A stretch of DNA of 64,000 nucleotides from a virus. The first letter of the stretch is position 1, and every line of letters starts with the position of its first letter. The notes below the pieces were generated by a model that was not told the origin of the DNA, made no database searches, and saw nothing but the letters and a program-made list of their open reading frames with translations. Where the stretch lies: positions 1 through 64,000 of IMG/VR virus record IMGVR_UViG_3300030109_006363. One strand, given 5' to 3'. The position numbers and the translations under genes are program-made. Positions 3,432-63,852 of this stretch are shown one piece after another.

Positions 3432-3437
3432 ATAATA

Positions 3438-3445
3438 TATTTATA
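3438..3445 (-). promoter_or_regulatory. Late promoter TATAAATA for the gene at 1638-3431
   Basis: A perfect T4 late octamer on the - strand, 6 bases before the ATG at 3431. The 17-bp gap (3432-3448) also serves the divergent + strand gene at 3449. Confidence 0.75.
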
Positions 3446-3448
3446 CCT

Positions 3449-3901
3449 ATGAAGCTGAATTATAAAGATTTTAACGAAATGTCTGATAAAGAATTACGTA
3501 AATTACCAGGAGTTGGTAGAACTACTGTAGCGCGTATTGTGGGGTTCAGACCTTTTAGAAATAATAACGACTTGTTTAAAGTAAAAGGCTTAGGAGCTAA
3601 GACTCTTAAAAAACTAGGTATCGTTAAATCAAAAAAGAAAAAGAAAAAATGGTATACTATTGATGGTATTGATTATCCAGATACTTGTTTAGCAAGAGAT
3701 AAAAAATATGGAACTATTGACTTGTTTTGGAGAATACCTAATGAAAATAGAGAAAGTGTAGGTGAACCATCACCGTGGGTTTTACGTGTGCGTCGTATAC
3801 TTGAACGTACAAGAGCTGAAGGCCCAGATGGTATTATGAGTCGATATGTAGACAACTCTTATATGTGGGAACCTGGTTTTAAGTTTGATTGGGAAGATTG
3901 A
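3449..3901 (+). CDS. Small helix-hairpin-helix protein
   Basis: A 150-residue protein of two parts. Residues about 12-52 hold two helix-hairpin-helix motifs of the ComEA type (LRKLPGVGRTTVARIVGF and FKVKGLGAKTLKKLGI), which bind DNA backbone non-specifically. A lysine-rich linker follows, then a C-terminal region (from about residue 67) with many aromatic and charged residues and an acidic end (KFDWED) that I cannot assign. It is divergent from the gene at 1638-3431. A role in replication, repair or DNA handling is plausible from the motif and from the neighbouring replication genes; no nuclease motif is evident. Confidence 0.6.
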   Translation: MKLNYKDFNEMSDKELRKLPGVGRTTVARIVGFRPFRNNNDLFKVKGLGAKTLKKLGIVKSKKKKKKWYTIDGIDYPDTCLARDKKYGTIDLFWRIPNENRESVGEPSPWVLRVRRILERTRAEGPDGIMSRYVDNSYMWEPGFKFDWED

Positions 3902-3930
3902 AAAACAAATAAATTATACTAAAATAGTAT

Positions 3931-4602
3931 ATGTGTGCTATCTTTGGTTCTTTTAATACTTCTATGTTTGAAGTTTTGTATGAAGCTAATAAACAAAGAG
4001 GTAATTTCGCAAGTAGTATAGTAAGTCTTTCTGAAGATGATCAATATATTAAAAAGAAGAAAGGTGATATAGACTTTGATAAGTATACTCATCAACCTGA
4101 TACTAGCTACTACTTAGGTCACGTTCAAGCTCCAACATCGTCCGTAAGAGCATGGAATTATGATACATCCCATCCGTTTGAAACTATGTCTTGGTTAGTA
4201 AGTCATAACGGTGTTCTTACTAATCATAAAAAGCTTAATAAAATTTATAACTTTTATACAAGTGTAGATACTGATACTATAGTAAACCTTTTGGAGCACT
4301 TTACAGCTGCTCAACATAAAAAGGGTAAAACGTTTATTAATACTAAAAAAATAGTAAAGGATACTTTAGAGTGTTTATCTGGTACTTTTGCTCTTAGTAT
4401 AGTTAGTTGTGATACTAACGAAGTGTTTATAGCGAGATCGGGCTCAATACTCCATTATAATAATAGTGGTGACTACTCTACTCTTAATGGTGAAGGTTTA
4501 AAGGAACTTCCGGAAGGGGTAGTTATGAAGCTTAATATGAAAACACATAGATGGAATAAGCTTTGTAGCTTTAAACATGATTCACCTTTTTCTTTTATAT
4601 GA
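3931..4602 (+). CDS. Stand-alone class-II (Ntn) glutamine amidotransferase
   Basis: A 223-residue protein with the N-terminal nucleophile glutaminase fold of GlmS, PurF and AsnB. After removal of Met1 the catalytic Cys2 is exposed (MCAIFGSF). GHVQAPTSS and SHNGVLTNH match the glutamine-binding and oxyanion segments, including the Asn-Gly pair. No synthetase, isomerase or phosphoribosyltransferase domain follows, so any released ammonia must be used by another protein. QueC uses ammonia, and Gat-QueC fusions are known, so the queC product at 883-1641 is an attractive partner. It overlaps the following glycosyltransferase gene by 4 bases (ATGA). The fold is clear; partner and product are inference. 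Confidence 0.75.
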   Translation: MCAIFGSFNTSMFEVLYEANKQRGNFASSIVSLSEDDQYIKKKKGDIDFDKYTHQPDTSYYLGHVQAPTSSVRAWNYDTSHPFETMSWLVSHNGVLTNHKKLNKIYNFYTSVDTDTIVNLLEHFTAAQHKKGKTFINTKKIVKDTLECLSGTFALSIVSCDTNEVFIARSGSILHYNNSGDYSTLNGEGLKELPEGVVMKLNMKTHRWNKLCSFKHDSPFSFI

Positions 4603-5255
4603 TTAATACAATGATATTTTCTGCTACTGCGGGTAGCGACATAGATACCTTACTATGGAAAACTAGTGAAAACTCTTCTGTTATTTTTAAACAAAATAAT
4701 AAAGATCCTCTTCATAAAGTTTATAATAAAGCAATAAAGTTTGCTATTCAAGAAAATGTACAAAATTTAGTACTAGTTCATGATGATGTAATTTTAGAAA
4801 ACTTTTCAGAAGACAAATTAAACAACCTATTCAAAAAATATGATGTTGTAGGTTGTGCCGGTGCTAAAGAAGTTAATTTAGCTCCCCCTGCATTATGGCA
4901 TTTAATGGGCGGAGGGTTTGGCTCGCCTAATCTACATGGCGCTGTAGCTCATTTAGATAGTAAAGGTAAAAAACGCATGACACCTTTTGGAAGTTATCCT
5001 AATAGAGCGATTATTATTGATGGTGTCTTTATGGCTATAAAAAGAAAGGTATTTCAAAAAATTAAATTTGATGAATCTTGCCCTTCAAAATGGCATTTTT
5101 ATGATTTAGATTATTCCATGCAATGTCATAAAGCTGGATTCAAAGTAGGAGTCGGTGATATTTTAGTTACTCACGACTCACCAGGGTTAGAGTCGTTTAA
5201 TGAAGAATTTAACAAAGGTCAAGAGTGGTTTTTGAATAAGTGGAAAACTAAATGA
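4599..5255 (+). CDS. GT-A glycosyltransferase, StrF/GT2-like
   Basis: A 218-residue protein resembling StrF-type family-2 glycosyltransferases. LVLVHDDVIL (about residues 66-75) supplies a DxD-like nucleotide-sugar/metal site. IIIDGVFMAIKRKVF and FYDLDYSMQCHKAGFKVGVG match the acceptor-side segments, and VTHDSPG holds a late His-Asp pair. No membrane segment is visible, so it is probably cytosolic. It overlaps the amidotransferase stop by 4 bases and precedes gene 41. Possible acceptors are modified DNA bases or virion proteins; nothing in the sequence decides between them. Confidence 0.65.
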   Translation: MINTMIFSATAGSDIDTLLWKTSENSSVIFKQNNKDPLHKVYNKAIKFAIQENVQNLVLVHDDVILENFSEDKLNNLFKKYDVVGCAGAKEVNLAPPALWHLMGGGFGSPNLHGAVAHLDSKGKKRMTPFGSYPNRAIIIDGVFMAIKRKVFQKIKFDESCPSKWHFYDLDYSMQCHKAGFKVGVGDILVTHDSPGLESFNEEFNKGQEWFLNKWKTK

Positions 5256-5262
5256 TTGATTA

Positions 5263-5268
5263 TATCAT
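5263..5268 (+). promoter_or_regulatory. Candidate -10 element (TATCAT) of gene 41
   Basis: TATCAT ends 6 bases before the GTG of gene 41. The same hexamer at the same spacing precedes dut. No convincing -35 box is visible here, so this is a weak call. Confidence 0.35.
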
Positions 5269-5274
5269 ATTATT

Positions 5275-6582
5275 GTGAGTAAATTAGACTTAGATTATTT
5301 CGAAAATGTCTTAATGTATAAGTCTCTTACTGACGGGACTTATCTAGCTTCAGTAGCTGACTTTGTAAAGCCTGAATACTTTAAAAATAAAGCTATAGCT
5401 AGTATCTTTACTATTATTAAGGAATTTTCTGAAAAACGCAATAAACTACCTACTACAACCGAGATTAAATCTCATTTAGTATCCGATGAACAAAAAGAAT
5501 CGTTTAAAGAGCTAGTAGTTTCGTTTAACGATATAGATAAAGACTTAGATAAAGATGAGTTGTATGATAATACTGAACAGTTTCTTAAAGAAAAAGCTGT
5601 TTATCATACTATGCTTAACGTAGCTGAAGATGTATCGAGTGGTAAAGTAGATACTTCTGTAGTACTTGATAAGTTTGAAAAGTCTTGTAATATTAATCTA
5701 GTAACCGACTTAGGTTTAGATCTTTATAGTGATATAGATTTACTTATCGATGATATTAATTCAGTTGAGCGACATGTACCTAGTAACTGGGAGTGGTTAG
5801 ATGAAACTTTAGGTGGTGGGTTCTTAGAAGCTGGTAAATCTTTGTATGTATTTGCTGGAGAAACTAATATTGGTAAGTCTATTTTCTTAGGTAATATAGC
5901 TACTAATATAGCTCAACAAGGTAAAAATGTATTACTAGTAACTCTAGAGATGTCAGAGTTATTATATGCTCGTAGATTATGTACTAATGTAACGAAGATA
6001 CCTATGAAAGAGCTAGCGGGTAATGCCCCGTCTATTAGACAAGCAGTTAAAAGTGAAGAGGGTAAAATTTTTATTAAAGAGTTTCCTCCCTCTACTATTA
6101 CTCCTAGTCAGCTAAAAGGGTTTGTTAAGAAGTTTCAAGATAAAGGTATTAAGTTAGATGCTATAGTTTTAGACTATCTCAACTTAATGCATTCTACTAT
6201 GGGTAATAATTCTTATGAACGTATTAAGCATGTAACTGAGCAAGTTCGTGCTATGAGTTATATCTTTGAATGTCCTATTATATCAGCTACTCAGTTAAAT
6301 AGATCAGGCTTTGATACAGATAATCCTGATCTTGCTACTATATCTGAATCTATTGGATTAGCTGCTACTGCAGATGTTATCGTATCTATATATCAAAACG
6401 AAGAAGATAGAGAACTTGGTATAATTAGATTGGGTATGATGAAAAACCGATATGGCCCTCGAGGAAATACTCAAGCTATGCGTATCGACTATAGTACTCT
6501 ATCTATCGAAGAAGCAGATGATATAGAGTTTGAAGATGACGGTAATGAAACTCTCAACGCATTAGTTGGACTTGCACAATAA
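5275..6582 (+). CDS. 41: Replicative DNA helicase, T4 gp41/DnaB family
   Basis: A hexameric helicase that unwinds the replication fork 5' to 3' on the lagging strand and works with primase gp61. The N-terminal part (about residues 1-140) is the helical DnaB-like domain. The RecA-like core follows, with Walker A GETNIGKS (about residue 198), the DnaB motif LLVTLEMSE, Walker B DAIVLDYLNL, and a Q/R region SATQLNRSGFDT. Length is 435 residues against 475 in T4. The start is GTG (GTG AGT AAA). It lies 19 bases after the glycosyltransferase gene in the + strand replication region. Confidence 0.92.
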   Translation: MSKLDLDYFENVLMYKSLTDGTYLASVADFVKPEYFKNKAIASIFTIIKEFSEKRNKLPTTTEIKSHLVSDEQKESFKELVVSFNDIDKDLDKDELYDNTEQFLKEKAVYHTMLNVAEDVSSGKVDTSVVLDKFEKSCNINLVTDLGLDLYSDIDLLIDDINSVERHVPSNWEWLDETLGGGFLEAGKSLYVFAGETNIGKSIFLGNIATNIAQQGKNVLLVTLEMSELLYARRLCTNVTKIPMKELAGNAPSIRQAVKSEEGKIFIKEFPPSTITPSQLKGFVKKFQDKGIKLDAIVLDYLNLMHSTMGNNSYERIKHVTEQVRAMSYIFECPIISATQLNRSGFDTDNPDLATISESIGLAATADVIVSIYQNEEDRELGIIRLGMMKNRYGPRGNTQAMRIDYSTLSIEEADDIEFEDDGNETLNALVGLAQ

Positions 6583-6591
6583 GGAACTTTT

Positions 6592-6599
6592 TATAAATA
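6592..6599 (+). promoter_or_regulatory. Late-type promoter TATAAATA before the DHH gene
   Basis: A perfect TATAAATA octamer lies 6 bases before the GTG at 6606, in the short gap after gene 41. A late promoter inside a replication block is unexpected. It may give a second wave of expression of the DHH, 33-like and 59-like genes. Confidence 0.6.
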
Positions 6600-6605
6600 T
6601 ACCTA

Positions 6606-7475
6606 GTGAATATCCAAGTATGGACAGACACAGATCTACACGGAGCTGGAGGCGCTTTAGTATTGAAGTGGTTATATAAAAATTCAAAAACGTTTAATAT
6701 AAATGACGTAACTGAGTCGACTTTTACTGGTCGCTTTAAGGGAGCGCTTAGTACCTTAGATCATTATGATCGGATTTTTATTATAGATTTAGATTTAAAT
6801 AAAGAACAAATTGAGCTCGTTGACAAAGGTAACGTAGTTGTTATAGATAGTCATAAAAATCATAGCTCATATAAGCATTTATATAAAAACGCTAAAGTGA
6901 TAATTGATGAAAGTTATTTTTCAGTAGTAAATCTAATTAAAGATAAATTTAAAAGTCATTTAGATCTTAATAATAACCAAATAAAGCTAATTGAGTTAAT
7001 AAATGGTTATGATTGGTATAAATCTAATAACGACTCTCTTAAACTTAATGCTGTTTATTATAATTTAAATTCTCCAAAAACGGAAAATTTTATAAGTAGT
7101 TTTTATAATGGCTTTAGCTCTTATACTATAGAGCAAAAAAATTCTATAAAATTATTTTTTAAAAAATTTAAAGAACAAATTAATAGTAATGGTATTTTTA
7201 AAGGTAATATAAAAGAATATAATGTAGTAGCATCTTTTGGTAATTATGCAGTAGGAGAATTAGCTCATTTTCTATTAAGTAAGTATAATGCTGATATTAG
7301 TATTATTGTAAATACAAAAGCTAAAACTGTTTCTTTTAGAAGATCAAAAGATTGCGATGCAGATGTAAGTTTAATAGCTAAAAAATTATGTGATGGAGGC
7401 GGTCATCCTGCATCAGCCGGAGGTAAGTTAACTAATCAGTTTGCGTCATTAACTAAACAATTTACACCATGTTAA
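6606..7475 (+). CDS. DHH/DHHA1-family phosphoesterase
   Basis: A 289-residue protein with the two-domain layout of NrnA/RecJ-type phosphodiesterases, which cleave short oligonucleotides, cyclic dinucleotide products or pAp. Motif I is TDTDLHGAGGA (a D-x-D-xx-G pattern), motif II is FIIDLDL, and motif III is VVIDSHKNH where most relatives have DHH. The C-terminal DHHA1 domain ends in GGGHPASAGGKL, the substrate-binding glycine loop. Motif III keeps Asp and two His but with altered spacing, so activity should be tested rather than assumed. It starts with GTG and overlaps the next gene by 7 bases. Nucleotide recycling or removal of host signalling nucleotides are both possible roles. Confidence 0.75.
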   Translation: MNIQVWTDTDLHGAGGALVLKWLYKNSKTFNINDVTESTFTGRFKGALSTLDHYDRIFIIDLDLNKEQIELVDKGNVVVIDSHKNHSSYKHLYKNAKVIIDESYFSVVNLIKDKFKSHLDLNNNQIKLIELINGYDWYKSNNDSLKLNAVYYNLNSPKTENFISSFYNGFSSYTIEQKNSIKLFFKKFKEQINSNGIFKGNIKEYNVVASFGNYAVGELAHFLLSKYNADISIIVNTKAKTVSFRRSKDCDADVSLIAKKLCDGGGHPASAGGKLTNQFASLTKQFTPC

Positions 7476-7765
7476 ATAAAAATTTAAACCAGGCTCCTTC
7501 CAGCACCCTTATAAAAGACGAAACAGAACATTTACTTTTATGTTTTTGCACTTTCTGTTCTCAGTTAAAAGGAAAAAAGCTATCATTACAAAACATATTC
7601 ATACTAGTTTTACAAGAAGAAAAAATACGTAACATATTAAAGGAACTTTTAACCATTGAAACTAACTTTGATGTAGTTAAACTATTTATAGACTTTGAGC
7701 CATCAATTACAAAATCTAAATATATTACTAAGTTCCTTAATTCCCATTCAGATATAGATTTATGA
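7469..7765 (+). CDS. Hypothetical protein in the position of T4 gene 33
   Basis: A 98-residue protein with no recognisable motif. T4 genes run 33-59-32; here a 98-, a 222- and a 277-residue gene stand in that order, with lengths close to T4 gp33 (112), gp59 (217) and gp32 (301). T4 gp33 bridges RNA polymerase and the gp45 clamp for late transcription and ends in a short hydrophobic-acidic clamp-binding tail. This protein ends in SHSDIDL, only loosely similar. It overlaps both neighbours by a few bases, so the three genes are probably translated together. The gene is convincing; the gp33 role rests on order and size. Confidence 0.4.
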   Translation: MLNKNLNQAPSSTLIKDETEHLLLCFCTFCSQLKGKKLSLQNIFILVLQEEKIRNILKELLTIETNFDVVKLFIDFEPSITKSKYITKFLNSHSDIDL

Positions 7766-8430
7766 TCACCGAAAAAGAGAAGTCAATATATAATAGCTAC
7801 TTATATGCTTCTCGAAAGGCTAAAAATAAGCCAGTTAGACTAAGACAAAATTTTGATAACCTTGAAAGTAAGGATGAAGTAAGTCTTAAAAAATTAAACT
7901 TACTTTTATCAAAGTATAATCATATAAACTATAGTGATTTTTTTATAGCTCCTTATAAAGTATATGGGACTGATAATTACTTTGATCTATCATTCTTTAA
8001 TACAAGAAAAGCTATCAAATGCTATTCTCTTTACTGTAGAGATAAAGAAGTACAGAATCCCGATAGTGAAGAATGTATTAGTACGTTAAAGGAATGCTTA
8101 AAGTTTATTTGTGATTATTGTGAAGAGGAAAAAATTACTTTAGCTCAATATAAAAATTACTCTAATGTAGATACTCCTAATTCTATACCAATAATTTTTA
8201 CACATCTTAAAAATCATAAAATTAATTTTTACTTAATACACGCACTTAATATAGATTCAGTTATTAAAGAATGTACAGGAACTTTAACTTGGATTATTCC
8301 TGAATTTTACGACTTATATGCTCAGACAAGAGCAAAGTTCCTTAGTTCAAAACAACTAAAGCATAAAGCAAAAAAAGGTCTTAAAATAATAGAACAAAGA
8401 CTATTGAAGTTTAGTAGCCAGTCATTATAA
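7762..8430 (+). CDS. Hypothetical protein, candidate gp59-type helicase loader
   Basis: A 222-residue, mostly helical, basic protein directly upstream of gene 32. T4 gp59, which loads gp41 helicase onto gp32-coated DNA, has 217 residues and sits in the same place. The sequence has a basic N-terminus (ASRKAKNKPVRLRQ), a central aromatic region (NYSDFFIAPYKVYG, YFDLSFFNTRKAIKCY) and a basic C-terminus. I cannot align it confidently to T4 gp59 by eye. It overlaps the upstream gene by 4 bases. Support is positional plus size; a profile search against T4 gp59 would decide. Confidence 0.42.
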   Translation: MITEKEKSIYNSYLYASRKAKNKPVRLRQNFDNLESKDEVSLKKLNLLLSKYNHINYSDFFIAPYKVYGTDNYFDLSFFNTRKAIKCYSLYCRDKEVQNPDSEECISTLKECLKFICDYCEEEKITLAQYKNYSNVDTPNSIPIIFTHLKNHKINFYLIHALNIDSVIKECTGTLTWIIPEFYDLYAQTRAKFLSSKQLKHKAKKGLKIIEQRLLKFSSQSL

Positions 8431-8431
8431 T
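8404..8431 (+). promoter_or_regulatory. Sigma70-type promoter of gene 32, predicted leaderless
   Basis: TTGAAG (8404-8409), a 16-base spacer and a perfect TATAAT (8426-8431) lie just before gene 32. Only 6 bases separate the -10 box from the ATG at 8438, so transcription would start at or next to the start codon. Confidence 0.65.
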
Positions 8432-8437
8432 TAGCGT

Positions 8438-9271: not shown

Positions 9272-9272
9272 T

Positions 9273-10413: not shown

Positions 10414-10751
10414 TGATTGATCAACAAAAAAAGAATAAGCTTAAAACTCCTGGATATTTTATCAAACGATTAAAAGATAACGATTTTGTTACTCTTAGAA
10501 TATTTGATAAGTATAGTGATAGTGATCCAAGAAGGTGGACTGTGTTAGTTGACCCGGCTGGTGCATCTGTTTTTATTACGTGCTTTGAAAATACCCCATT
10601 TAAAGGCGAGTATTTATTTCAATTTAATGATGGTAACCAACTATTTAAAAATAGCTTTAGTTTAAAAACAGATTCTATTGAGGTTGTAGTTCAAAAATTA
10701 CTTAAAAGCGGTGTTAGGCAAAAGGATGAAAGTAATTTTTTGAATAAATAA
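10413..10751 (+). CDS. Hypothetical protein after the clamp gene
   Basis: A 112-residue protein that starts at the last base of gene 45, suggesting translational coupling. It begins with a lysine-rich segment (KKNKLKTPGYFIKRLKDND), then strands such as RRWTVLVDPAGASVFITCF and EYLFQFNDG, and a short helix (SIEVVVQKLLKSG). No known motif is visible. T4 has RpbA, an RNA-polymerase-binding protein of similar size, next to gene 45, but I see no sequence match. Confidence 0.5.
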   Translation: MIDQQKKNKLKTPGYFIKRLKDNDFVTLRIFDKYSDSDPRRWTVLVDPAGASVFITCFENTPFKGEYLFQFNDGNQLFKNSFSLKTDSIEVVVQKLLKSGVRQKDESNFLNK

Positions 10752-10755
10752 CAAC

Positions 10756-11362: not shown

Positions 11363-12158
11363 AGATTTCTCTCAAGAAAAAGTTAATAACTTCCATATAT
11401 ACTTTACGCTTAATGCGGTGAGCTCCTACGTGAAGCAGTTTTTACCCGATAATACTATATTTGTATGGGATGAAAAGCCTATTTATAAAACCAATATACG
11501 TAAGGAGATGCTTGAGAGCTATAAGGGTAATAGATCTAAAGATAGTTCACCTCATCAAAATAACGAAGTAATAAAATCTATACTTAAAACGATGGGCATT
11601 AATTCAATATTCCCTAGTCAGCTAGAAGCAGATGATGTAGTAGCATATATATGTAGAGAAAATGAAGGGTCTAAAGTAATTATTTCCGTAGATAGAGATT
11701 TTTTACAACTTGTAAGCGAAGAATGCACACTGTATGATCCAATAAGAAAGAAATATTTTGATTATGCTTCTTTCGAACAAGAAACAGGTTATAAGAATGT
11801 TGATGAGTGGTATACTGCTAAATGTTTAACTGGTGATAAGTCTGATAATGTACCGGGTATACCTCGTTTTGGTGCTGCTTCAGTTAAAAAATATTTGGCT
11901 GACCCGGGTTATATGTTAGATAAATCTCAGCAAGAAATATTTAAACGCAATGCTGATATATTTTGCTTAGATAAATATGAATCGCTACCTGATGAAAAGG
12001 AATATTATAGAGAGCAACTAGAAGTTAAAATTGAAGCGAGTTATAAAGAGTTTATTAATTATTGTAAAGAATATTCGTTCGAACGTATTCTATCTAAAAA
12101 AGAAAATTGGTTTTTTATGAAAAGTCTATATAATAAACTAAATGATATCGCTTCCTGA
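11283..12158 (+). CDS. rnh: RNase H / 5'-3' exonuclease, FEN-1 family (T4 Rnh)
   Basis: Removes RNA primers and short flaps from Okazaki fragments. The N-terminus LIIDGNNLIHRTYY carries the first metal-binding Asp. The helical arch region has the basic residues NIRKEMLESYKGNRSKD. The acidic cluster appears as LEADDVVAYI and ISVDRDFLQL, and the helix-three-turn-helix region reads CLTGDKSDNVPGIPRFGAASVKKYL, with the GDxSDN(V)PG signature and matching Asp residues. Length is 291 residues against 305 in T4. It is followed, with a 17-base overlap, by the primase gene. Confidence 0.9.
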   Translation: MKTLIIDGNNLIHRTYYTAKNQAKKSEDFSQEKVNNFHIYFTLNAVSSYVKQFLPDNTIFVWDEKPIYKTNIRKEMLESYKGNRSKDSSPHQNNEVIKSILKTMGINSIFPSQLEADDVVAYICRENEGSKVIISVDRDFLQLVSEECTLYDPIRKKYFDYASFEQETGYKNVDEWYTAKCLTGDKSDNVPGIPRFGAASVKKYLADPGYMLDKSQQEIFKRNADIFCLDKYESLPDEKEYYREQLEVKIEASYKEFINYCKEYSFERILSKKENWFFMKSLYNKLNDIAS

Positions 12159-13621: not shown

Positions 13622-13653
13622 AAAAATATTTATTCTCTAGCATAAATAATTAC
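13622..13653. promoter_or_regulatory. Bidirectional late promoter
   Basis: The 32-base gap holds AATAAATA on the - strand (13627-13634), 5 bases from the ATG at 13621, and CATAAATA on the + strand (13641-13648), 5 bases from the ATG at 13654. The layout and most of the sequence recur at 55591-55622. Confidence 0.7.
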
Positions 13654-14010: not shown

Positions 14011-14465
14011 CTTTTTTAAGGTCAATTATTATTTCTATATTAGTATCTCTTGGTTTTGGCTTTGGATTAAAAAATATTATTGGTTTCTGGGAAGCTTTTG
14101 CCTTAGCATTAGTAATGCAGTTTGTTCTAGCGTTTATTTATAATTCTACTAAAATTAATAAAGTTCAAGAACTTACAAATGATTTTCAAAATGAACTCGA
14201 TCAGTTATTAAGTCTAAGTGAGGCTAAAATAGATTGCCCCTGTGGTAACTACACGTACAATACAAATTTATTTCTTAATATAGAAGAAACGTTTAAATGT
14301 GAAAAATGTGGTAATGAGTTTAGAATTGAATTTACAGCTACACCAACCTTAATTACACAACCTGTATATACACAAAATGATGTAGATTTTAAAGAAGGTA
14401 AAACAGATGAAGTTAAGTTTACCTCTGACTATAAACCTGCAGGGAAAATAGGAACGGAACTATAA
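14007..14465 (+). CDS. Membrane protein with C-terminal zinc ribbon
   Basis: A 152-residue protein. Residues about 4-46 form two closely spaced hydrophobic segments (SIIISILVSLGFGFGL and AFALALVMQFVLAFIY), a likely membrane hairpin. A helical linker follows, then a four-cysteine ribbon (CPCGNY and CEKCGNEF, about 72-105), typical of small zinc-binding domains. The C-terminus is polar. It is translationally coupled to the preceding gene. The combination suggests a membrane-anchored binding protein made late in infection; its function is unknown. Confidence 0.6.
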   Translation: MTFLRSIIISILVSLGFGFGLKNIIGFWEAFALALVMQFVLAFIYNSTKINKVQELTNDFQNELDQLLSLSEAKIDCPCGNYTYNTNLFLNIEETFKCEKCGNEFRIEFTATPTLITQPVYTQNDVDFKEGKTDEVKFTSDYKPAGKIGTEL

Positions 14466-14471
14466 TATAAT
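14466..14471 (+). promoter_or_regulatory. Candidate -10 box TATAAT, predicted leaderless
   Basis: TATAAT ends 6 bases before the ATG at 14478. It is part of a 16-base sequence (14456-14471) that recurs exactly at 38600-38615 before another + strand gene. No clear -35 box is visible. Confidence 0.45.
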
Positions 14472-14477
14472 TATATT

Positions 14478-18837: not shown

Positions 18838-18845
18838 TATTTAAT
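18838..18845 (-). promoter_or_regulatory. Late promoter ATTAAATA
   Basis: Lies 6 bases before the ATG at 18831. It probably drives the lectin-like and protease genes. Confidence 0.65.
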
Positions 18846-19066: not shown

Positions 19067-19074
19067 TATTTATT
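19067..19074 (-). promoter_or_regulatory. Late promoter AATAAATA
   Basis: Lies 5 bases before the ATG at 19061 and overlaps the stop codon of the small upstream gene. Confidence 0.6.
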
Positions 19075-23606: not shown

Positions 23607-23614
23607 TATTTATT
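23607..23614 (-). promoter_or_regulatory. Late promoter AATAAATA
   Basis: Lies 5 bases before the ATG at 23601. Confidence 0.65.
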
Positions 23615-25978: not shown

Positions 25979-25986
25979 TATTTAAT
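25979..25986 (-). promoter_or_regulatory. Late promoter ATTAAATA
   Basis: Lies 5 bases before the ATG at 25973 and overlaps the stop of the upstream gene. Confidence 0.6.
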
Positions 25987-30615: not shown

Positions 30616-30623
30616 TATTTATT
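30616..30623 (-). promoter_or_regulatory. Late promoter AATAAATA
   Basis: Lies 6 bases before the ATG at 30609. Confidence 0.65.
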
Positions 30624-34031: not shown

Positions 34032-34039
34032 TATTTATC
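34032..34039 (-). promoter_or_regulatory. Late promoter GATAAATA
   Basis: Lies 6 bases before the ATG at 34025, in the gap after the gene at 34041. Confidence 0.65.
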
Positions 34040-38573: not shown

Positions 38574-38581
38574 TATTTAAT
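38574..38581 (-). promoter_or_regulatory. Late promoter ATTAAATA of the gp25-gp6 operon
   Basis: Lies 6 bases before the ATG at 38567. Confidence 0.7.
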
Positions 38582-38604
38582 GTAGCATATCAGGATAAAG
38601 GAAC

Positions 38605-38610
38605 TATAAT
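38605..38610 (+). promoter_or_regulatory. Candidate -10 box TATAAT, predicted leaderless
   Basis: TATAAT ends 7 bases before the GTG at 38618. It belongs to the 16-base sequence at 38600-38615 that also occurs at 14456-14471. Confidence 0.45.
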
Positions 38611-38933: not shown

Positions 38934-38941
38934 CATAAATA
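38934..38941 (+). promoter_or_regulatory. Late promoter CATAAATA
   Basis: Lies 5 bases before the ATG at 38947. It supports that start over the upstream in-frame TTG at 38923. Confidence 0.7.
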
Positions 38942-46580: not shown

Positions 46581-46588
46581 TATTTATC
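46581..46588 (-). promoter_or_regulatory. Late promoter GATAAATA
   Basis: Lies 5 bases before the ATG at 46575. It probably drives the gp48-gp53-gp27 genes. Confidence 0.7.
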
Positions 46589-48106: not shown

Positions 48107-48114
48107 TATTTATG
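48107..48114 (-). promoter_or_regulatory. Late promoter CATAAATA
   Basis: Lies 5 bases before the GTG at 48101 and overlaps the stop region of the upstream gene. Confidence 0.65.
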
Positions 48115-48855: not shown

Positions 48856-48863
48856 TATTTAAC
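48856..48863 (-). promoter_or_regulatory. Late promoter GTTAAATA
   Basis: Lies 5 bases before the ATG at 48850 and touches the stop codon of the upstream gene. Confidence 0.6.
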
Positions 48864-49644: not shown

Positions 49645-50292
49645 CTAAAATGCAAAAGGTAAAGCCTGCCCAGTAGTTCGTAAAGGCTTATAATCTCTAA
49701 AAGCAAATGTAACTGACTTTTCCTGAAACTCTTCATCATTATACGATAATTGATAACCTTCTACATTTGTAGGAAACACTTCTCTAAACTCATACCCTTT
49801 ACGTAAACGCATTCTATTATCATACTGTCTTAAGATAACTTTAGGACATAAGAGATTCCTTTCTAGTAAACCATCTATACCTAAAGCTATCATCCAAGGT
49901 CTAAAGAAGAAGTGCTCAATATCATCGATAGTATCAAAAAAGTTAATAGCTAAATTTTTAGATAAAAAGTCTACTCTTTTGTTTAAAGCATACCCGGGTA
50001 AGAAGCCACCCATATTTTGTTGACCGGCAATATCAAATTGCGAGTTTTCATTAGGAACGTTAACTGTTCTTGCTACTAAGATATTACCATTTTCTGTAAA
50101 TGCATCTGGCTCTGTAGTAGCTTTCCAATTGTCTGCGTCTTGTTTATACGCTTTAGTAATAGCTTTATTAATGTTAGGTATTAACTCTGAACCCTCGTAA
50201 AGAAATTCTATCTTCCAAAGAAAGGGATGCGAGAGAAAGAACCTTTCACTATAGCTATACCTATCGAGAAAATCTTGCTGCTCAAACGCCAT
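49645..50292 (-). CDS. Tail tube-like protein (gp19/gp54 fold)
   Basis: A 215-residue protein related in pattern to tail tube proteins. FLSHPFLWKIEFLYEGS is a first strand pair, NILVARTVNVPNENSQFDIA marks a tube-like hairpin, FFFRPWMIALGIDGLL is the characteristic buried helix, and REVFPTNVEGYQLSYNDEEF with VTFAFRDYKPL forms the final strands. It is longer than the major tube protein downstream of the sheath. It could be the tube initiator (gp54-like) or a minor tube ring. It has its own ATTAAATA promoter. Confidence 0.6.
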   Translation of the reverse strand: MAFEQQDFLDRYSYSERFFLSHPFLWKIEFLYEGSELIPNINKAITKAYKQDADNWKATTEPDAFTENGNILVARTVNVPNENSQFDIAGQQNMGGFLPGYALNKRVDFLSKNLAINFFDTIDDIEHFFFRPWMIALGIDGLLERNLLCPKVILRQYDNRMRLRKGYEFREVFPTNVEGYQLSYNDEEFQEKSVTFAFRDYKPLRTTGQALPFAF

Positions 50293-50298
50293 TAATAA

Positions 50299-50306
50299 TA
50301 TTTAAT
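50299..50306 (-). promoter_or_regulatory. Late promoter ATTAAATA
   Basis: Lies 6 bases before the ATG at 50292. Confidence 0.65.
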
Positions 50307-50317
50307 CGCGAGTGTAA

Positions 50318-50860
50318 TTAAGAAAGGGCAAAGTCTCTATAGAAGTGGAATGCAAAGGTTACATCAAAGCTTAATACATCACCTGAACCATCAGCAATAT
50401 CATAACTTACAGCTCCAACATTTCTAAGAGAAGCTCCTACAAGTTCGATATTTCTAACATCATTAAGCTGTTTGTCAACTTGAACTAAATTAATAACAGA
50501 TTCTTCACCAGGCATGCCATATTGACCTATTGAAGTTTCATTATTAAAAACCACTCTAGAAGCAGCTTCAAATTTAGTTCTTAACTGACAATCTTCATCA
50601 TGATAAAAACTAATTGTATATCCTCCTGCTTCAGGGTAAGTCGATCTACCAGGTACTTGAAACTCTTGTCCAAAATAGTTAACTACCTTACTATCAATGT
50701 TTCGTCCCGGCAACTGCGCTGTCTTTGCATAAACTAGATCATTATCACCAACAAATGTAATTCCACCTGCTAATGTAATGTTTCTAACTCTAAATAGAAA
50801 ATCTCTCGAAAATTGATTTTCTGCTGCTTTAGTAAAGAAGTTTTGAATTGTTGTTGCCAT
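50318..50860 (-). CDS. 19: Tail tube protein gp19
   Basis: The major tail tube subunit, forming the inner tube through which DNA passes. Recognisable parts are RDFLFRVRNITLAGG, VYAKTAQLPGRNIDSKVVNY with GQEFQVPGRSTYPEAGGY, YTISFYHDEDCQLRTKFEA, and VSYDIADGSGDVLSFDVTF with FHFYRDF. Length is 180 residues against 163 in T4. It follows the sheath gene by 25 bases and has its own promoter 5 bases from the ATG, as expected for a highly expressed structural gene. Confidence 0.85.
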   Translation of the reverse strand: MATTIQNFFTKAAENQFSRDFLFRVRNITLAGGITFVGDNDLVYAKTAQLPGRNIDSKVVNYFGQEFQVPGRSTYPEAGGYTISFYHDEDCQLRTKFEAASRVVFNNETSIGQYGMPGEESVINLVQVDKQLNDVRNIELVGASLRNVGAVSYDIADGSGDVLSFDVTFAFHFYRDFALS

Positions 50861-50865
50861 AATAA

Positions 50866-50873
50866 TATTTAAT
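50866..50873 (-). promoter_or_regulatory. Late promoter ATTAAATA of the tube gene
   Basis: Lies 5 bases before the ATG at 50860. Confidence 0.7.
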
Positions 50874-50885
50874 TGTTCTTATTGT

Positions 50886-53228: not shown

Positions 53229-53233
53229 AAAAT

Positions 53234-53241
53234 TATTTATC
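53234..53241 (-). promoter_or_regulatory. Late promoter GATAAATA of the sheath gene
   Basis: Lies 5 bases before the ATG at 53228. Confidence 0.7.
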
Positions 53242-53260
53242 CTAATTTAGGTTAATAATT

Positions 53261-53842
53261 TCAAAAACTGATAACTTCTGTATGTAATTGTGAGTAAACA
53301 AATGTAAATCCTGATGTAATTTCATCTGAAGTTGTATAATTATAGCTTATAGCTTCAACTGTAGTGGGAAATGCTTTAGTGTATGTAAATTTTATACGAT
53401 TATTGTTGAATTCGTCTTTACCAAAAATGGTCAAATCAGTCTGATAATCCTGAAAATCTGGATTATTTTCATTTATCTCACGAGCATTATACCGCCCTTC
53501 ATATTGATCATGTAACAAATTAAGCCAAGAGTATATTGCATAGTAATTTTTATACTCATTATCTATTTTAAATCCTATAGATACAGGAGGATAAGGGTTT
53601 TTCGAATGAGAAGATACATATAAAGTGTTACCAGCGTATCTATTTTCTACTGCAGGAACATTAACTTCAGGTACTGCAGCACCAAATATTGAAAATTGAA
53701 CCGAATCAGGTATTAAGCTATCGTTAGTTTGATTAAACTTTTTACTAAACTCCTTTAAAATTGGTGGTACATCAAAAACTAATAAAAACTTATCAGCTCT
53801 AGATTTGTTCAGCATCGACTGCTGCATAGTATTCCTTGCCAT
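53261..53842 (-). CDS. Tail tube-like paralog between terminase and sheath
   Basis: A 193-residue protein starting at the ATG at 53842 (MARNTMQQSMLNKSRADKFL), not at the upstream TTG at 53881. A perfect TATAAATA lies 5 bases before that ATG. Tube-like features are KFLLVFDVPPILKEF, PDSVQFSIFGAAVPEVNVPA, YPPVSIGFKIDNEYKNYYAI, and FTYTKAFPTTVEAISYNY with SGFTFVYSQL. Together with the products of the genes at 50318 and 49645 it makes three tube-type proteins. It could be a tail terminator, a minor tube ring or a tube initiator; order alone does not decide. Confidence 0.6.
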   Translation of the reverse strand: MARNTMQQSMLNKSRADKFLLVFDVPPILKEFSKKFNQTNDSLIPDSVQFSIFGAAVPEVNVPAVENRYAGNTLYVSSHSKNPYPPVSIGFKIDNEYKNYYAIYSWLNLLHDQYEGRYNAREINENNPDFQDYQTDLTIFGKDEFNNNRIKFTYTKAFPTTVEAISYNYTTSDEITSGFTFVYSQLHTEVISF

Positions 53843-53847
53843 GTATA

Positions 53848-53855
53848 TATTTATA
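53848..53855 (-). promoter_or_regulatory. Late promoter TATAAATA inside the end of gene 17
   Basis: A perfect octamer that overlaps the gp17 stop codon and ends 5 bases before the ATG at 53842. It fixes the start of the tube-like gene. Confidence 0.75.
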
Positions 53856-55590: not shown

Positions 55591-55622
55591 AGAAATATTT
55601 AGTAGGTAGCATAAATAATTAC
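55591..55622. promoter_or_regulatory. Bidirectional late promoter of gene 17 and the gene at 55623
   Basis: ACTAAATA on the - strand (55596-55603) ends 5 bases from the GTG of gene 17, and CATAAATA on the + strand (55610-55617) ends 5 bases from the ATG at 55623. The layout and most bases match 13622-13653. Confidence 0.75.
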
Positions 55623-56603
55623 ATGTCAAAAGGAAAAGACTTTATATCATTAGGTGAAGCATACAAAGATATCTTCAACAAAGTAGTAGTTAACGAAGAT
55701 GTTCCAGCTGGAACGACAGGAGAAGCTCCTTTAACCAAAGAAGGAGGTCCTGAAGAAAAAGGAGGGTTTCGAAAGCCCCTCGTTGACTTAGATAATATGT
55801 CCGATAAAGATAAGAAGGATAATATTTATAATATTAAAGGCTATTCATACGGAGACGGTAACGACCCAGTTGATTGTCAATCGCCAAAACCAACAGGTCC
55901 AACTTTCGGTCAAGTTGCAACTACAGGAGCAGTTGGTCCTGAGGAAGATGAAGAAGATGAAGAAAAGCCTGATTATATTGATTTAGATAAAGATGGTGAT
56001 AAAAAGGAGTCTATGAAGAAAGCTGCTCAAGATAAGAAAGAAGAAAATGAAGAAAATGAAGAAGATGAAGAATTTTTAGGAGAACACGAGAAAATTGCAC
56101 GAGATGGCCTAAATAATTTTATGAGCAAGACTTCCGTATTTGATAAACTTTATAATAAAGTAATGGTAAACGAAAACTTCGGTGAAGATCAAGAAGATAT
56201 CACTGATATTGAGGCACTTGGAATCGAAACCGATGAAGACGGTGGTGATGAGGGTGAAGTTACTATTACTATTTCGAAAGAATGTTGCGAAGAAATTCAT
56301 GCAGCATGTGAAAAAGCACTCGGTGTAAGTGATGATGAGCCTGATGAGGACTTTGAAACAGCAGTTGCTTATGAAGAAGACGAAGAGGCAATTGATCCTG
56401 GTTCTGAGCTTCATCACAATGTAAACATGGGAACCGGTGGAAGTAACAAGGTTGGTAGTTTGAAGCCTAAAGGAGCTGCTAAAGATAAAGCTGCTTCAGG
56501 AACAGTTGATCCTGGTTCTGAGCTTCATCATAAAGTAAACATGGGAACCGGTGGAAGTAACAAGGTTGGTAGTTTACAATCCGGCCAAGGTGCATTCGAT
56601 TAA
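55623..56603 (+). CDS. Hypothetical acidic late protein with internal repeats
   Basis: A 326-residue, very acidic protein. The N-terminal leader DFISLGEAYKDIFNKVVVNED is echoed inside the protein by FDKLYNKVMVNENFGED (about residue 175). An acidic run (EEDEEDEEKPDYIDLDKDGD, about 107-126) could bind metal ions in an EF-hand-like way. The C-terminus has two copies of DPGSELHHxVNMGTGGSNKV. A strong terminator follows. The leader pattern and late promoter suggest a head-associated or packaged protein. No enzyme motif is visible. Confidence 0.5.
   Translation: MSKGKDFISLGEAYKDIFNKVVVNEDVPAGTTGEAPLTKEGGPEEKGGFRKPLVDLDNMSDKDKKDNIYNIKGYSYGDGNDPVDCQSPKPTGPTFGQVATTGAVGPEEDEEDEEKPDYIDLDKDGDKKESMKKAAQDKKEENEENEEDEEFLGEHEKIARDGLNNFMSKTSVFDKLYNKVMVNENFGEDQEDITDIEALGIETDEDGGDEGEVTITISKECCEEIHAACEKALGVSDDEPDEDFETAVAYEEDEEAIDPGSELHHNVNMGTGGSNKVGSLKPKGAAKDKAASGTVDPGSELHHKVNMGTGGSNKVGSLQSGQGAFD
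56392..56575 (+). repeat. 70-bp direct repeat, two copies 114 bp apart
   Basis: Copy 1 is 56392-56461 and copy 2 is 56506-56575, nearly identical with about two substitutions. Both lie in frame and encode the DPGSELHH repeat at the C-terminus of the acidic protein. Confidence 0.85.
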
Positions 56604-56628
56604 AAAAAAGCTCAATAATTAAATTAAA

Positions 56629-56662
56629 AGAGCCCGTAGAGTAGACCTCTTCGGGCTTTTTT
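56629..56662 (+). terminator. Rho-independent terminator
   Basis: AGCCCGTAGAG (56631-56641) pairs with CTCTTCGGGCT (56647-56657) with a single T-T mismatch and a 5-base loop, followed by a run of T. It lies between the acidic protein gene and the next late promoter. Confidence 0.85.
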
Positions 56663-56670
56663 AATAAATA
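56663..56670 (+). promoter_or_regulatory. Late promoter AATAAATA
   Basis: Lies 5 bases before the GTG at 56676, directly after the terminator. Confidence 0.7.
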
Positions 56671-56675
56671 TAAGT

Positions 56676-57707: not shown

Positions 57708-57708
57708 A

Positions 57709-58506: not shown

Positions 58507-58510
58507 TCTT

Positions 58511-59434: not shown

Positions 59435-59441
59435 ACTATAT

Positions 59442-59449
59442 GATTTAGT
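59442..59449 (-). promoter_or_regulatory. Degenerate late promoter ACTAAATC
   Basis: Lies 7 bases before the ATG at 59434. It differs from the main set in its last base. Confidence 0.4.
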
Positions 59450-59465
59450 ATGGTCACTCTATAAA

Positions 59466-61871: not shown

Positions 61872-61876
61872 ACTTA

Positions 61877-61884
61877 TATTTATT
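61877..61884 (-). promoter_or_regulatory. Late promoter AATAAATA
   Basis: Lies 5 bases before the ATG at 61871 of the repeat adhesin. Confidence 0.7.
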
Positions 61885-62129
61885 TACTTCGGTGCTTTTA
61901 ACCGGCAACAAACAGCAATAACTGTTGCTAGCACGCCAGATAACAATAAATGCTTCTTAAAACTTTCAATGTTTTCAGTTACATTACAATATAAATCTCC
62001 ATCTGTAGTTAACGCTCCTTTATTTAAAGCTTCTAAATAGACGTTAACCATGTCTACACAAAAATACCCTCTAATAACGAATGCTAGAATAATAGCTGCT
62101 AAAATATATACTAGATATTTTGGTTTCAT
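61884..62129 (-). CDS. Small two-TM membrane protein next to holin
   Basis: An 81-residue protein with hydrophobic segments at about residues 5-22 (LVYILAAIILAFVIRGYF) and 60-76 (LLLSGVLATVIAVCC), and a polar loop with one NVT site and a cysteine between them. It starts at the stop of the holin gene (TAATG overlap), so it is made together with it. It could be an antiholin, a holin partner or a spanin-like protein; it has no lipobox. The position makes a lysis role likely. Confidence 0.5.
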   Translation of the reverse strand: MKPKYLVYILAAIILAFVIRGYFCVDMVNVYLEALNKGALTTDGDLYCNVTENIESFKKHLLLSGVLATVIAVCCRLKAPK

Positions 62130-62446
62130 TATTTTTTAATAACCTTTTCCGGGTTATCTGCAAATTTTTTACCAAGTTTTACTATTCCCTCAATGACCTC
62201 AGGTGATATAACACCAATAATTCCATATGTTACCGCTTTATAAAGTGAAGATATCTCTGTTTGTTCAAGTATAAACCATGCTATCCCAGCTGATATACCA
62301 GCAGTAAGTATTTTTTTAAGTTGTTGGCCCCAAGTGTAATTATTTTCTCCTGATAGTAAACGCGCTAACATAGCGCCGGCCCCAATCAAAGGCACGACCC
62401 ATCCTCCGCTTAGAAACTCTTTAAGTAGGGATTTTTCAGGTTCCAT
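62129..62446 (-). CDS. Holin, LydA/phage-holin-3-like
   Basis: A 105-residue protein with an amphipathic start (EPEKSLLKEFLSGG), three hydrophobic segments (WVVPLIGAGAMLARLL at about 16-31, ILTAGISAGIAWFILE at about 46-61, AVTYGIIGVISPEVIEGI at about 70-87) and a lysine-rich tail. This matches the small holins that permeabilise the inner membrane at lysis. The promoter is CATAAATA, 6 bases from the ATG. No endolysin is visible in the window. Confidence 0.65.
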   Translation of the reverse strand: MEPEKSLLKEFLSGGWVVPLIGAGAMLARLLSGENNYTWGQQLKKILTAGISAGIAWFILEQTEISSLYKAVTYGIIGVISPEVIEGIVKLGKKFADNPEKVIKK

Positions 62447-62452
62447 TTTATA

Positions 62453-62460
62453 TATTTATG
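62453..62460 (-). promoter_or_regulatory. Late promoter CATAAATA of the holin pair
   Basis: Lies 6 bases before the ATG at 62446. Confidence 0.65.
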
Positions 62461-62499
62461 GATAAAACTATGTAGTTCTAGAGAATAGTAAGTTTATTA

Positions 62500-62526
62500 T
62501 TGATTTCTAATTATTCAGTATATAAT
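62500..62526 (+). promoter_or_regulatory. Sigma70-type promoter of the PD-(D/E)XK gene
   Basis: TTGATT (62500-62505), a 15-base spacer and TATAAT (62521-62526) end 8 bases before the GTG at 62535, again leaving no room for a normal leader. Confidence 0.5.
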
Positions 62527-62534
62527 ATTAGATA

Positions 62535-63260
62535 GTGAAGATAAAGTTTGATGAAGCGTCTCATACCTATACGCATAAAGATACTGATGAAAAGTTTATT
62601 TCTGTAACTACTCTACTTGGAAAGTATAAACAACCCTTTGATAGAGAGGGTCACTCTAAGAGAGTAGCTGATAGGGAAGGTATATCTCAAGAGTTAGTCT
62701 TAGAGATGTGGGAAAAAGAAAAGGTAAGAGCTTGTAACCGAGGTACTGATATTCATAAAATATTAGAAGATTATATTAGCTTTGGTGATGTAAGAGAGAA
62801 TTATAGTTGGTTGTGTAAATCATATGATAAAGCAGCAGAACGTTCTATTGATTCATTTAAAAATGTTCTTTGTGAGAATTTGCTTTATGATGAAGAGTTT
62901 AAGATAGCTGGTACAGCAGATTTAATTTATGAACATAAAAATGAATTTACTATTGGAGATTTTAAGACTAATAAACGTTTTAGATTTAGCTCACCATATA
63001 GTGAAAGATTAAAAGACCCTATAAGTCATTTACATAACTGTGAGTTTAACTTATATGGATTACAGCTATCGCTTTATGCTTATCTCTATGAAAGAATGAC
63101 TAGTAAGAGGTGTAGAAAGTGTGTTATCTATTACTTAAAAGATGATAGATTTTTATCTTATCATGTAAATTATATGAAAGCTGAAGTTGAAGCTATCTTA
63201 GCTAGTATGCAAAAGAGCGGAGCAGAAGTCCCAGTTAACAATATCGAAAAACTTGCTTAG
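62535..63260 (+). CDS. PD-(D/E)XK nuclease, Cas4/RecB-like
   Basis: A 241-residue protein starting with GTG. The nuclease core reads FKIAGTADLIYEHKN, then EFTIGDFKTNKRFRF, giving the metal-binding D and D-x-K of motifs II and III; QLSLYAYLYER is the QxxxY motif IV of RecB-like nucleases. A histidine in RGTDIHKILEDYI could be motif I. No iron-sulfur cysteine cluster is obvious, though CRKC occurs near the end. Such proteins trim DNA ends in replication, recombination or host-DNA degradation. Its last 63 bases overlap the convergent sod gene. Confidence 0.72.
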   Translation: MKIKFDEASHTYTHKDTDEKFISVTTLLGKYKQPFDREGHSKRVADREGISQELVLEMWEKEKVRACNRGTDIHKILEDYISFGDVRENYSWLCKSYDKAAERSIDSFKNVLCENLLYDEEFKIAGTADLIYEHKNEFTIGDFKTNKRFRFSSPYSERLKDPISHLHNCEFNLYGLQLSLYAYLYERMTSKRCRKCVIYYLKDDRFLSYHVNYMKAEVEAILASMQKSGAEVPVNNIEKLA

Positions 63261-63824
63261 CCATTCTTTTCTATCCGGTCCATACATTAGGTAGTAGCTA
63301 TGTTCCCATACATCTACTCCTAAGACTGGCTTACCCATACCATGCATTAAAGGATTATCTTGATTAGGCGTCTTTGCTAAATCTAATCTTCCATCCTTTT
63401 CAACTAACCACCCCCAACCGGAGCCAAATTGACTAGCTGCATTGTCAATAAATTCTTTTTTGAATTTAGCATATGTACCAAAGCGCTTTTTTATTCTATC
63501 AGCTATTTCACCGTTAAAATCGCTTCCTCCAGGCTTCATCATGTTAAAGAATAACTGATGATTATAAGCACCGCCGGCGTTGTCTCTTACCTTATCATTA
63601 TATTTGTTTATATTCTTTACAAGCTCTACTAACGGTATTTTTCTTCTTACTCCCATAGCTGCATTTAATTTTTTAACGTAACCTTTGTAGTGTTTGTTAA
63701 AATGAAAGTCTGTAGTTTGTTTATTTACTACGGGCTCTAAAGCATTTAATTTATAAGGTAAGTTTATAGGCTTATAAGGACCAACTTTCTCTAAAATTAA
63801 GTTTACTTCTTCTAAGAACGACAT
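63198..63824 (-). CDS. sod: Superoxide dismutase, Fe/Mn family (Mn-type residues)
   Basis: Converts superoxide to oxygen and hydrogen peroxide. A 208-residue protein of full family length. Metal ligands are all present: His41 in FHFNKHYKGYV, His89 in AGGAYNHQLFF, and Asp171 and His175 in VDVWEHSYYLMYG. The glycine pair before the second histidine and Gln155 in TPNQDNPL are the features of Mn-type rather than Fe-type enzymes. There is no signal peptide, so it acts in the infected cell or in the virion. It starts 6 bases after an ATTAAATA late promoter. The last residues overlap the nuclease gene on the other strand. Confidence 0.9.
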   Translation of the reverse strand: MSFLEEVNLILEKVGPYKPINLPYKLNALEPVVNKQTTDFHFNKHYKGYVKKLNAAMGVRRKIPLVELVKNINKYNDKVRDNAGGAYNHQLFFNMMKPGGSDFNGEIADRIKKRFGTYAKFKKEFIDNAASQFGSGWGWLVEKDGRLDLAKTPNQDNPLMHGMGKPVLGVDVWEHSYYLMYGPDRKEWLSKFFDIVNWDFCSALLHTS

Positions 63825-63830
63825 TAATTA

Positions 63831-63838
63831 TATTTAAT
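63831..63838 (-). promoter_or_regulatory. Late promoter ATTAAATA of sod
   Basis: Lies 6 bases before the ATG at 63824. It is divergent from the next promoter, which partly overlaps the same gap. Confidence 0.65.
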
Positions 63839-63839
63839 A

Positions 63840-63847
63840 AATAAATA
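63840..63847 (+). promoter_or_regulatory. Late promoter AATAAATA
   Basis: Lies 5 bases before the ATG at 63853. A second overlapping AATAAATA is at 63836-63843. Confidence 0.6.
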
Positions 63848-63852
63848 GGAAT

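Follow-up and report, generated by a model that had tools for sequence, protein, structure and literature searches.

The window considered here, a viral stretch of 64,000 nucleotides (positions 1 to 64,000 of IMG/VR record IMGVR_UViG_3300030109_006363), raises the question of what it means for a T4-type late promoter motif to lie almost against the start codons of its genes. The late box of T4 begins at -13 (PMC2988020). The original prediction was that an octamer ending in TAAATA precedes 26 gene starts, with a gap of 5 bases (17 genes) or 6 bases (9 genes), and that late mRNAs should therefore be leaderless. A scan of all ORFs of the window confirms this count and brings it to 27 ATG or GTG starts, 18 at gap 5 and 9 at gap 6, the additional one being the ORF that begins at 63853 and continues beyond the window. 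A single further case, gene 41431, carries TAAATA at gap 7.

The sites at gap 6 are found mostly on the minus strand: TATAAATA at 3438-3445 (ATG 3431; 597-aa gene 1638-3431), ATTAAATA at 18838-18845 (ATG 18831), AATAAATA at 30616-30623 (ATG 30609), GATAAATA at 34032-34039 (ATG 34025), ATTAAATA at 38574-38581 (ATG 38567; gp25-like baseplate wedge), at 50299-50306 (ATG 50292; tail tube paralogue) and at 63831-63838 (ATG 63824), and CATAAATA at 62453-62460 (ATG 62446; weak holin match). The only one on the plus strand is TATAAATA at 6592-6599 (GTG 6606). At gap 5, the minus strand carries AATAAATA at 19067-19074 (ATG 19061), AATAAATA and ATTAAATA at 23607-23614 (ATG 23601) and 25979-25986 (ATG 25973), each before a tail fibre-like gene, GATAAATA at 46581-46588 (ATG 46575), CATAAATA at 48107-48114 (GTG 48101; tape-measure-like gene), GTTAAATA at 48856-48863 (ATG 48850; baseplate hub), ATTAAATA at 50866-50873 (ATG 50860; tail tube), GATAAATA at 53234-53241 (ATG 53228; tail sheath), TATAAATA at 53848-53855 (ATG 53842; tail tube) and AATAAATA at 61877-61884 (ATG 61871; 801-aa gene). 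Plus-strand sites at gap 5 include AATAAATA at 10743-10750 (ATG 10756) and 56663-56670 (GTG 56676), and CATAAATA at 38934-38941 (ATG 38947).

The other gap-5 sites belong to divergent arrangements. Two 32-bp segments each hold two back-to-back promoters: 13622-13653, with AATAAATA at 13627-13634 (minus strand, ATG 13621) and CATAAATA at 13641-13648 (plus strand, ATG 13654), and 55591-55622, where ACTAAATA at 55596-55603 (minus strand, GTG 55590) serves the terminase large subunit and CATAAATA at 55610-55617 (plus strand) precedes ATG 55623. Three genomes contain such pairs, their start codons lying 30-32 bp apart. The divergent starts 63824 (minus) and 63853 (plus; AATAAATA at 63840-63847, ORF 63853-64059) are separated by 28 bp.

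The word itself is not enriched, as the window contains 139 TAAATA against 180 expected. The idea that TAAATA is merely common was rejected on this under-representation; only the placement of the word is special. In a blind test that took the first ATG of every ORF as the start, TAAATA stood at gap 5 or 6 in 22 of the 61 window genes, compared with a mean of 0.35 and a maximum of 4 in 300 dinucleotide shuffles. The same test gave 45/183 and 33/153 in two related genomes, of 171 kb and 155 kb respectively; for the late region of T4 the result was 0/53. The relatives (G001 onward) are IMG/VR contigs, the window fragment being G000; the genomes behind counts pooled over G000-G002 are related, which leaves these counts non-independent.

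It could be objected that the proximity of the octamer is a by-product of a compact A+T-rich genome whose transcripts carry leaders and start elsewhere. The genome is indeed dense, with 33% GC and short intergenic gaps. However, the placement far exceeds that in dinucleotide shuffles, gap bins 10-30 are nearly empty, and equally A+T-rich T4-like phages (T4, HTVC008M, Mosig and XG4; 31-36% GC) show no gap 5/6 pattern, which makes this explanation very improbable. More broadly, across 10 other T4-like phages (11 stretches), the motif lies mostly 15-44 bases upstream and Shine-Dalgarno (SD)-like sequences are found in 17-72% of genes.

The spacing is also kept gene by gene in related IMG/VR contigs. 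Gap 5 is found in 48/51 orthologues of the tail tube gene starting at 50860, in 39/42 of the tail sheath gene (53228) and in all 23 of gene 55623, and orthologues of the tail tube gene starting at 53842 are divided between gap 5 (24) and gap 6 (14). Since the starts are only predicted, they might be misassigned, the true ones lying downstream behind an SD sequence. This possibility is all but ruled out: conservation of the sheath protein begins at the called methionine (invariant M1, A2, R4, I6, S8 and P9), and orthologues share the start position in nearly all cases. The unit even recurs within a coding sequence. On the plus strand of gene 55623-56603, positions 56108-56123 comprise a nested octamer, CCTAAATA, followed by 5 bases and the in-frame internal ATG 56121; its TAAATA is retained in 21/21 unique orthologues, whose protein identity is 33-82%. 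Such a nested promoter suggests that the unit may also create extra protein products.

The bases downstream of the motif bear on the position of the transcript 5' end, which remains inferred. Counting 3' from TAAATA, the sixth base, equivalent to +1 in T4, is a purine at 144 of the 160 orthologous sites, and the fifth is a pyrimidine in 133/156. At gap 5 the purine is imposed by the start codon, so that free evidence comes only from the gap-6 sites and from the preceding pyrimidine. Base -1 is A in only 5/93 genes at gap 5 versus 30/40 at gap 6 (Fisher 3e-16). Start codons at these gaps are restricted to ATG (109) and GTG (23), without any TTG or CTG; the same ATG/GTG rule holds for mycobacterial leaderless starts (PMC4633059).

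The original prediction that no SD sequence fits in the gap is matched by an absence of SD in every gene class. SD-like sequences occur in 4 of the 133 genes of the octamer class (7.1 in shuffled sequence), in none of the 48 of the TATAAT class (3.1) and in 19 of 236 further genes (22.4). Set against the other T4-like phages, their share is 3-7% of genes, which is no more than chance, and no gene class exceeds its shuffled frequency.

This absence leaves room for a rival in which TAAATA would not be a promoter but would serve an SD-free host as an A/U-rich element for ribosome binding, the mRNAs having ordinary leaders. The fixed distance between motif and start fits this rival, and an upstream bias towards A/U in the absence of SD is known from Bacteroidetes and other groups (PMC5397173). 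Against it, the motif is identical to the late promoter core of T4 and cyanophages; it marks 11 of 15 virion genes but 0 of 8 replication genes (p=0.0013); in other genes this position is taken by a promoter of another -10/-35 type; most stop-start coupled genes are without TAAATA; its spacing tracks a YR initiator and not a fixed -1 context; and TTG and CTG starts are missing. A translation signal is therefore a very poor explanation, and the octamer is better read as a late promoter.

Several features of the T4 late system support the promoter reading. As in that system, a TATAAATA-like -10 box is present upstream of the late genes, here at about -13/-12 to -7/-6 from the start codon. Homologues of the late sigma factor gp55 (phrog_234) are encoded by the relatives G001, G002 and G003 (E about 1e-25 to 1e-26), with a C-terminal extension shorter than that of T4 gp55; the window fragment itself has no gp55 gene. 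A gp44-type clamp loader is present but the sliding clamp gp45 was matched by none of the models phrog_223, PF09116 and PF02916, although it may be diverged. Because it escaped all three, the T4 late mechanism is incomplete on paper.

T4 (Straboviridae), whose late promoters depend on gp55, gp33 and gp45, thus shares the TATAAATA core, the late virion genes and a gp55-type sigma factor with this lineage, but its box lies mostly about 20-45 bases upstream of the gene start instead of 5-6, 72% of its late-region genes have SD-like sequences, and octamer positions 1-2 are looser in the lineage studied here. The cyanophage and pelagiphage T4-like phages (Kyanoviridae: Syn9, Bellamy, HTVC008M, Mosig) resemble this lineage in being marine and carrying gp55. 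However, their sheath proteins are at most 44% identical to that of the studied phage, cyanophages have TAAATA at about 15-44 bases, and HTVC008M and Mosig show no clear TAAATA peak. The late motif reported for cyanophages is NATAAATA (PMC2984593), and published searches for late promoters in pelagimyophages failed (PMC7029224). Megablast of the first 25 kb of the window against phage records gave no match, relatives being found by protein only. The literature searched, which left out most subscription papers, contained no description of T4-like phages whose late transcription is systematically leaderless.

The original prediction confined leaderless expression to late genes, which appears too narrow. 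On the plus strand, the window carries a sigma70-type promoter, TTGAAG-16-TATAAT, at 8404-8431, 6 bases from ATG 8438 of a gp32-like SSB gene. TATAAT is also found at 12129-12134 (gap 7 to ATG 12142; primase), at 14466-14471 with GGAACT upstream (gap 6 to ATG 14478), at 38605-38610 with AAAGGAACT upstream (gap 7 to GTG 38618) and at 62521-62526 (gap 8 to GTG 62535; exonuclease), all on the same strand. The distance of TATAAT to the start codon peaks at gap 5-8, and TTGA lies 15-16 bp away in 24 genes of this class versus 1.7 expected. As these sigma70-like promoters also lie 5-8 bases from start codons, the early genes look leaderless too. The alternative, that leaderlessness is limited to late genes and that early genes are expressed with leaders and by conventional initiation, can invoke the octamer class as the largest and cleanest (133 genes across three genomes). 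It is nevertheless unlikely, given the peak at gap 5-8 with its TTGA and the lack of SD in the TATAAT class as well.

In the mechanism proposed, host RNA polymerase with a gp55-type late sigma factor would recognise NWTAAATA at about -13 to -6 of late, mostly virion, genes and would initiate transcription at gap 5 on the start codon's own A/G and at gap 6 one base ahead of it, yielding mRNAs without a leader or with a leader of one base. Early and replication genes would use TTGA-15/16-TATAAT promoters, whose -10 box 5-8 bases from the start codon would give leaders of 0-2 bases. Most genes without octamer or TATAAT are stop-start coupled, overlapping or nearly touching the upstream stop codon, and would probably be translated by coupling. 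SD sequences would not be used, translation being ensured by host ribosomes handling 5'-terminal AUG or GUG. A reservation is that read-through from upstream promoters would also yield leadered copies of internal genes.

As for the predicted need of a host or phage factor, no homologue of bS21, S1 or IF3 scored above the curated cut-off in eight records (IF2 was outside the search), and since no such phage protein was found, a property of the host is the likelier cause. Host ribosomes probably do translate leaderless messages, but this is an inference, as the host is unidentified and its ribosome cannot be examined. Neither the sheath protein nor its alignment retrieved a relative from GTDB contigs, and the window contains no tRNA or Rfam match that could serve as a host clue. 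Relative G001 has one tmRNA, which fits the standard one-piece model and is not diagnostic of a host.

Globally, leaderless late mRNA is supported by every prediction testable at the sequence level, including promoter geometry, +1 purine, ATG/GTG starts, lack of SD, conserved spacing and contrast with T4-like phages, but the RNA 5' ends themselves are inferred. The lineage is therefore likely to be a T4-like one whose promoters abut start codons and whose late and early mRNAs are leaderless. A bolder reading, to which we lean only slightly, is that transcription begins at the start codon itself for essentially every promoter, the late gp55-type as well as the early sigma70-type, that SD has been abandoned genome-wide, with other cistrons relying on stop-start coupling, and that the host is an uncultured bacterium with largely leaderless translation. 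In mycobacteria and other bacteria with leaderless mRNAs, transcripts similarly begin on the start codon, with ATG or GTG only and no SD (PMC4633059), as inferred for the 5' ends of this phage; however, the leaderless transcripts of those bacteria are host-encoded and represent about a quarter of the total, whereas in the phage every promoter class would apparently follow this mode as a rule. SD is also absent in SD-scarce bacteria (Bacteroidota, some Verrucomicrobiota, Planctomycetes; PMC10783764, PMC5397173), but these are cellular genomes and not a phage of an unidentified host.

Late promoter and ribosome-binding site, which are separate modules in T4, are fused in the studied lineage into a single unit, octamer + 5/6 + RTG. 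As this unit can be read from the sequence alone, start sites can be called to the base in a phage family that is uncultured. The lack of SD and the apparently leaderless early and late genes suggest, by inference, a host that routinely translates leaderless messages. If this is true, the virus would be adapted wholesale to leaderless translation, and promoter layout could be used as a fingerprint of the translation mode of the host and thus for host assignment of metagenomic phages.

An octamer ending in TAAATA, as in T4-like late promoters, lies 5 bases before ATG or GTG at 18 genes of the window and 6 bases before it at 9 genes, on both strands; the original prediction, which had reported this placement at 26 genes, held. 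TAAATA is not over-represented as a word in the window, its special feature being its placement. With starts called blindly, the first ATG being taken as gene start, TAAATA at gap 5 or 6 was found at 22 of 61 window genes, far above shuffles (0.35), and at none of 53 in the T4 late region. This placement is also present in two related IMG/VR contigs analysed in full, G001 (170,908 bases; 45/183 versus 1.25 in shuffles) and G002 (154,604 bases; 33/153 versus 0.88). Across 58 related IMG/VR loci recovered by a sheath search (53–100% identity), raw redundant counts reach 310 for gap 5 and 78 for gap 6, with no other gap in the 0–24 range exceeding 26. The gap is kept gene by gene among orthologues (tail tube 48/51, sheath 39/42, gene 55623-56603 23/23).

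The viral record containing the window (68,712 bases) has there the gene content of a T4-like contractile-tail phage, including sheath, three tail-tube paralogues, gp6/gp25-type wedge proteins and large terminase, along with a gp32-type SSB, a DnaB-type helicase, a primase and a gp44-type clamp loader. The tail-tube paralogues (phrog_45; 49645-50292, 50318-50860 and 53261-53842) are each preceded by a late octamer. The phage is remote from all phage records searched: megablast of the first 25 kb gave no match, the sheath shows at most 44% identity over part of its length only, and the terminase at most 39%.

In T4, the late box serves as the -10 element; it begins at -13 and sits roughly one helical turn away from where transcription starts (PMC2988020). 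By analogy, this geometry would put +1 on base 1 of the start codon at gap 5 and one base earlier at gap 6. A purine occupies the sixth position after TAAATA at 144 of 160 non-redundant orthologous sites, and the position just before it is a pyrimidine at 133 of 156. A directly precedes the start codon at 5/93 sites with gap 5 versus 30/40 with gap 6 (Fisher 3e-16), and therefore the purine tracks the promoter, not the codon. Start codons at these gaps are ATG (109) or GTG (23), never TTG or CTG, a restriction shared with mycobacterial leaderless genes (PMC4633059). Furthermore, in all three genomes, divergent pairs with two octamers have only 30–32 bp between start codons (13622-13653 and 55591-55622 in the window); therefore, mRNAs could have leaders of ordinary length only if the promoter lay within the opposite gene. 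These features, known from sequence alone, probably reflect transcription from the start codon. The leaderless interpretation of late mRNAs is thus supported, and widened to other promoter classes, direct RNA evidence being lacking.

Among 417 genes from the three genomes, which are related and hence not independent, 133 carry the octamer and 48 carry instead TATAAT at gap 5–8, with TTGA 15–16 bp upstream in 24 cases versus 1.7 expected. The latter class, which includes SSB, primase and exonuclease genes and gp55, likely corresponds to sigma70-type promoters with an inferred +1 on the start codon or 0–2 bases before; the claim limited to late genes was therefore too narrow. Within the remaining 236 genes, 158 start within -30 to +15 of an upstream stop codon, and many of the 67 starting more than 15 bases after a stop show one-mismatch versions of either motif in the same place (35 and 30, versus about 12 each in shuffles). 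SD-like sequences show no excess over shuffles in any gene class. The octamer precedes 11/15 virion genes versus 0/8 replication genes (p=0.0013; classes assigned by the analyst from the window annotation). A AAGGAACT element, possibly a middle-promoter or activator site, lies 15–21 bases ahead of start codons and immediately 5' of TATAAT (window 3423-3428, 6583-6588, 14456-14461 and 38600-38605; also G001 and G002); it is enriched at gene starts, not across the whole window.

The 326-aa gene 55623-56603 has a further octamer inside it, 5 bases ahead of an in-frame ATG at 56121 (residue 167; unit 56108-56121), as in seven related contigs (G001-G005, G007 and G009). Octamer and ATG are retained in all 21 unique orthologues, at 33–82% protein identity, nearly always as CTA AAT AAT TTT ATG; the two most distant contigs have ATA in place of CTA, a change that alters the amino acid and leaves TAAATA intact. 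This conservation suggests that the promoter-start unit is under selection. The predicted product would be a second protein of 160 aa, whose start, read by eye, looks like another copy of the sequence at the N-terminus of the full protein (F..LYNKV.VNE).

The same calling was applied to T4 (two regions), HTVC008M, Syn9, two single-cell marine viruses, pf16, Mosig, phiM9, XG4 and Bellamy. In these T4-like phages, TAAATA mostly lies about 15–44 bases upstream of starts, whereas the gap is 5–8 in the window lineage; HTVC008M and Mosig show no clear distance peak. SD-like sequences precede 17–72% of their genes but only 3–7% in the lineage. Base composition does not explain this contrast, because several compared genomes are equally A+T-rich.

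Searches with the sheath protein and its alignment found no relative in GTDB contigs. In G001 (159564-162507), a DUF1549/DUF1553 gene behind a late octamer is followed by DUF1501, apparently host-like cargo controlled by the phage as late genes. The PVC superphylum is rich in these families; the host hint is weak, because a control search also returned DUF1501 from Caulobacter and Deinobacterium. SD scarcity is known in some Verrucomicrobiota (PMC10783764), and low-SD phyla include Planctomycetes (PMC5397173). G001 also carries a tmRNA (164252-164661, - strand; 133.7 bits), whose predicted tag, at 32 residues, is unusually long. The same contig has CsgG, FecR and CHASE2-adenylate/guanylate cyclase genes clustered with octamers (140391-145525), and a CsgF match. 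QueC and glutamine amidotransferase genes occur in the window (883-1641 and 3931-4602) and in G001, which also has FolE2, PTPS and QueF matches; these genes might indicate 7-deazaguanine DNA modification.

A gp55-type late sigma is encoded by G001, G002 and G003 and is absent from the window fragment; it lacks a T4-like C-terminal extension. No gp45 sliding clamp was matched by phrog_223, PF09116 or PF02916 in the window fragment and G001-G003, though the gp44-type clamp loader is present.

T4 late promoters and leaderless mRNA are both known; the open-access literature searched yielded no description of a T4-like family with a leaderless layout in every promoter class. The original prediction implied a host or phage factor for leaderless translation. 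Its phage part is without support, no homologue of bS21, S1 or IF3 exceeding the cut-off in eight records; therefore, a host property is favoured, and the likely explanation, by inference, is that host ribosomes already accept leaderless mRNA.
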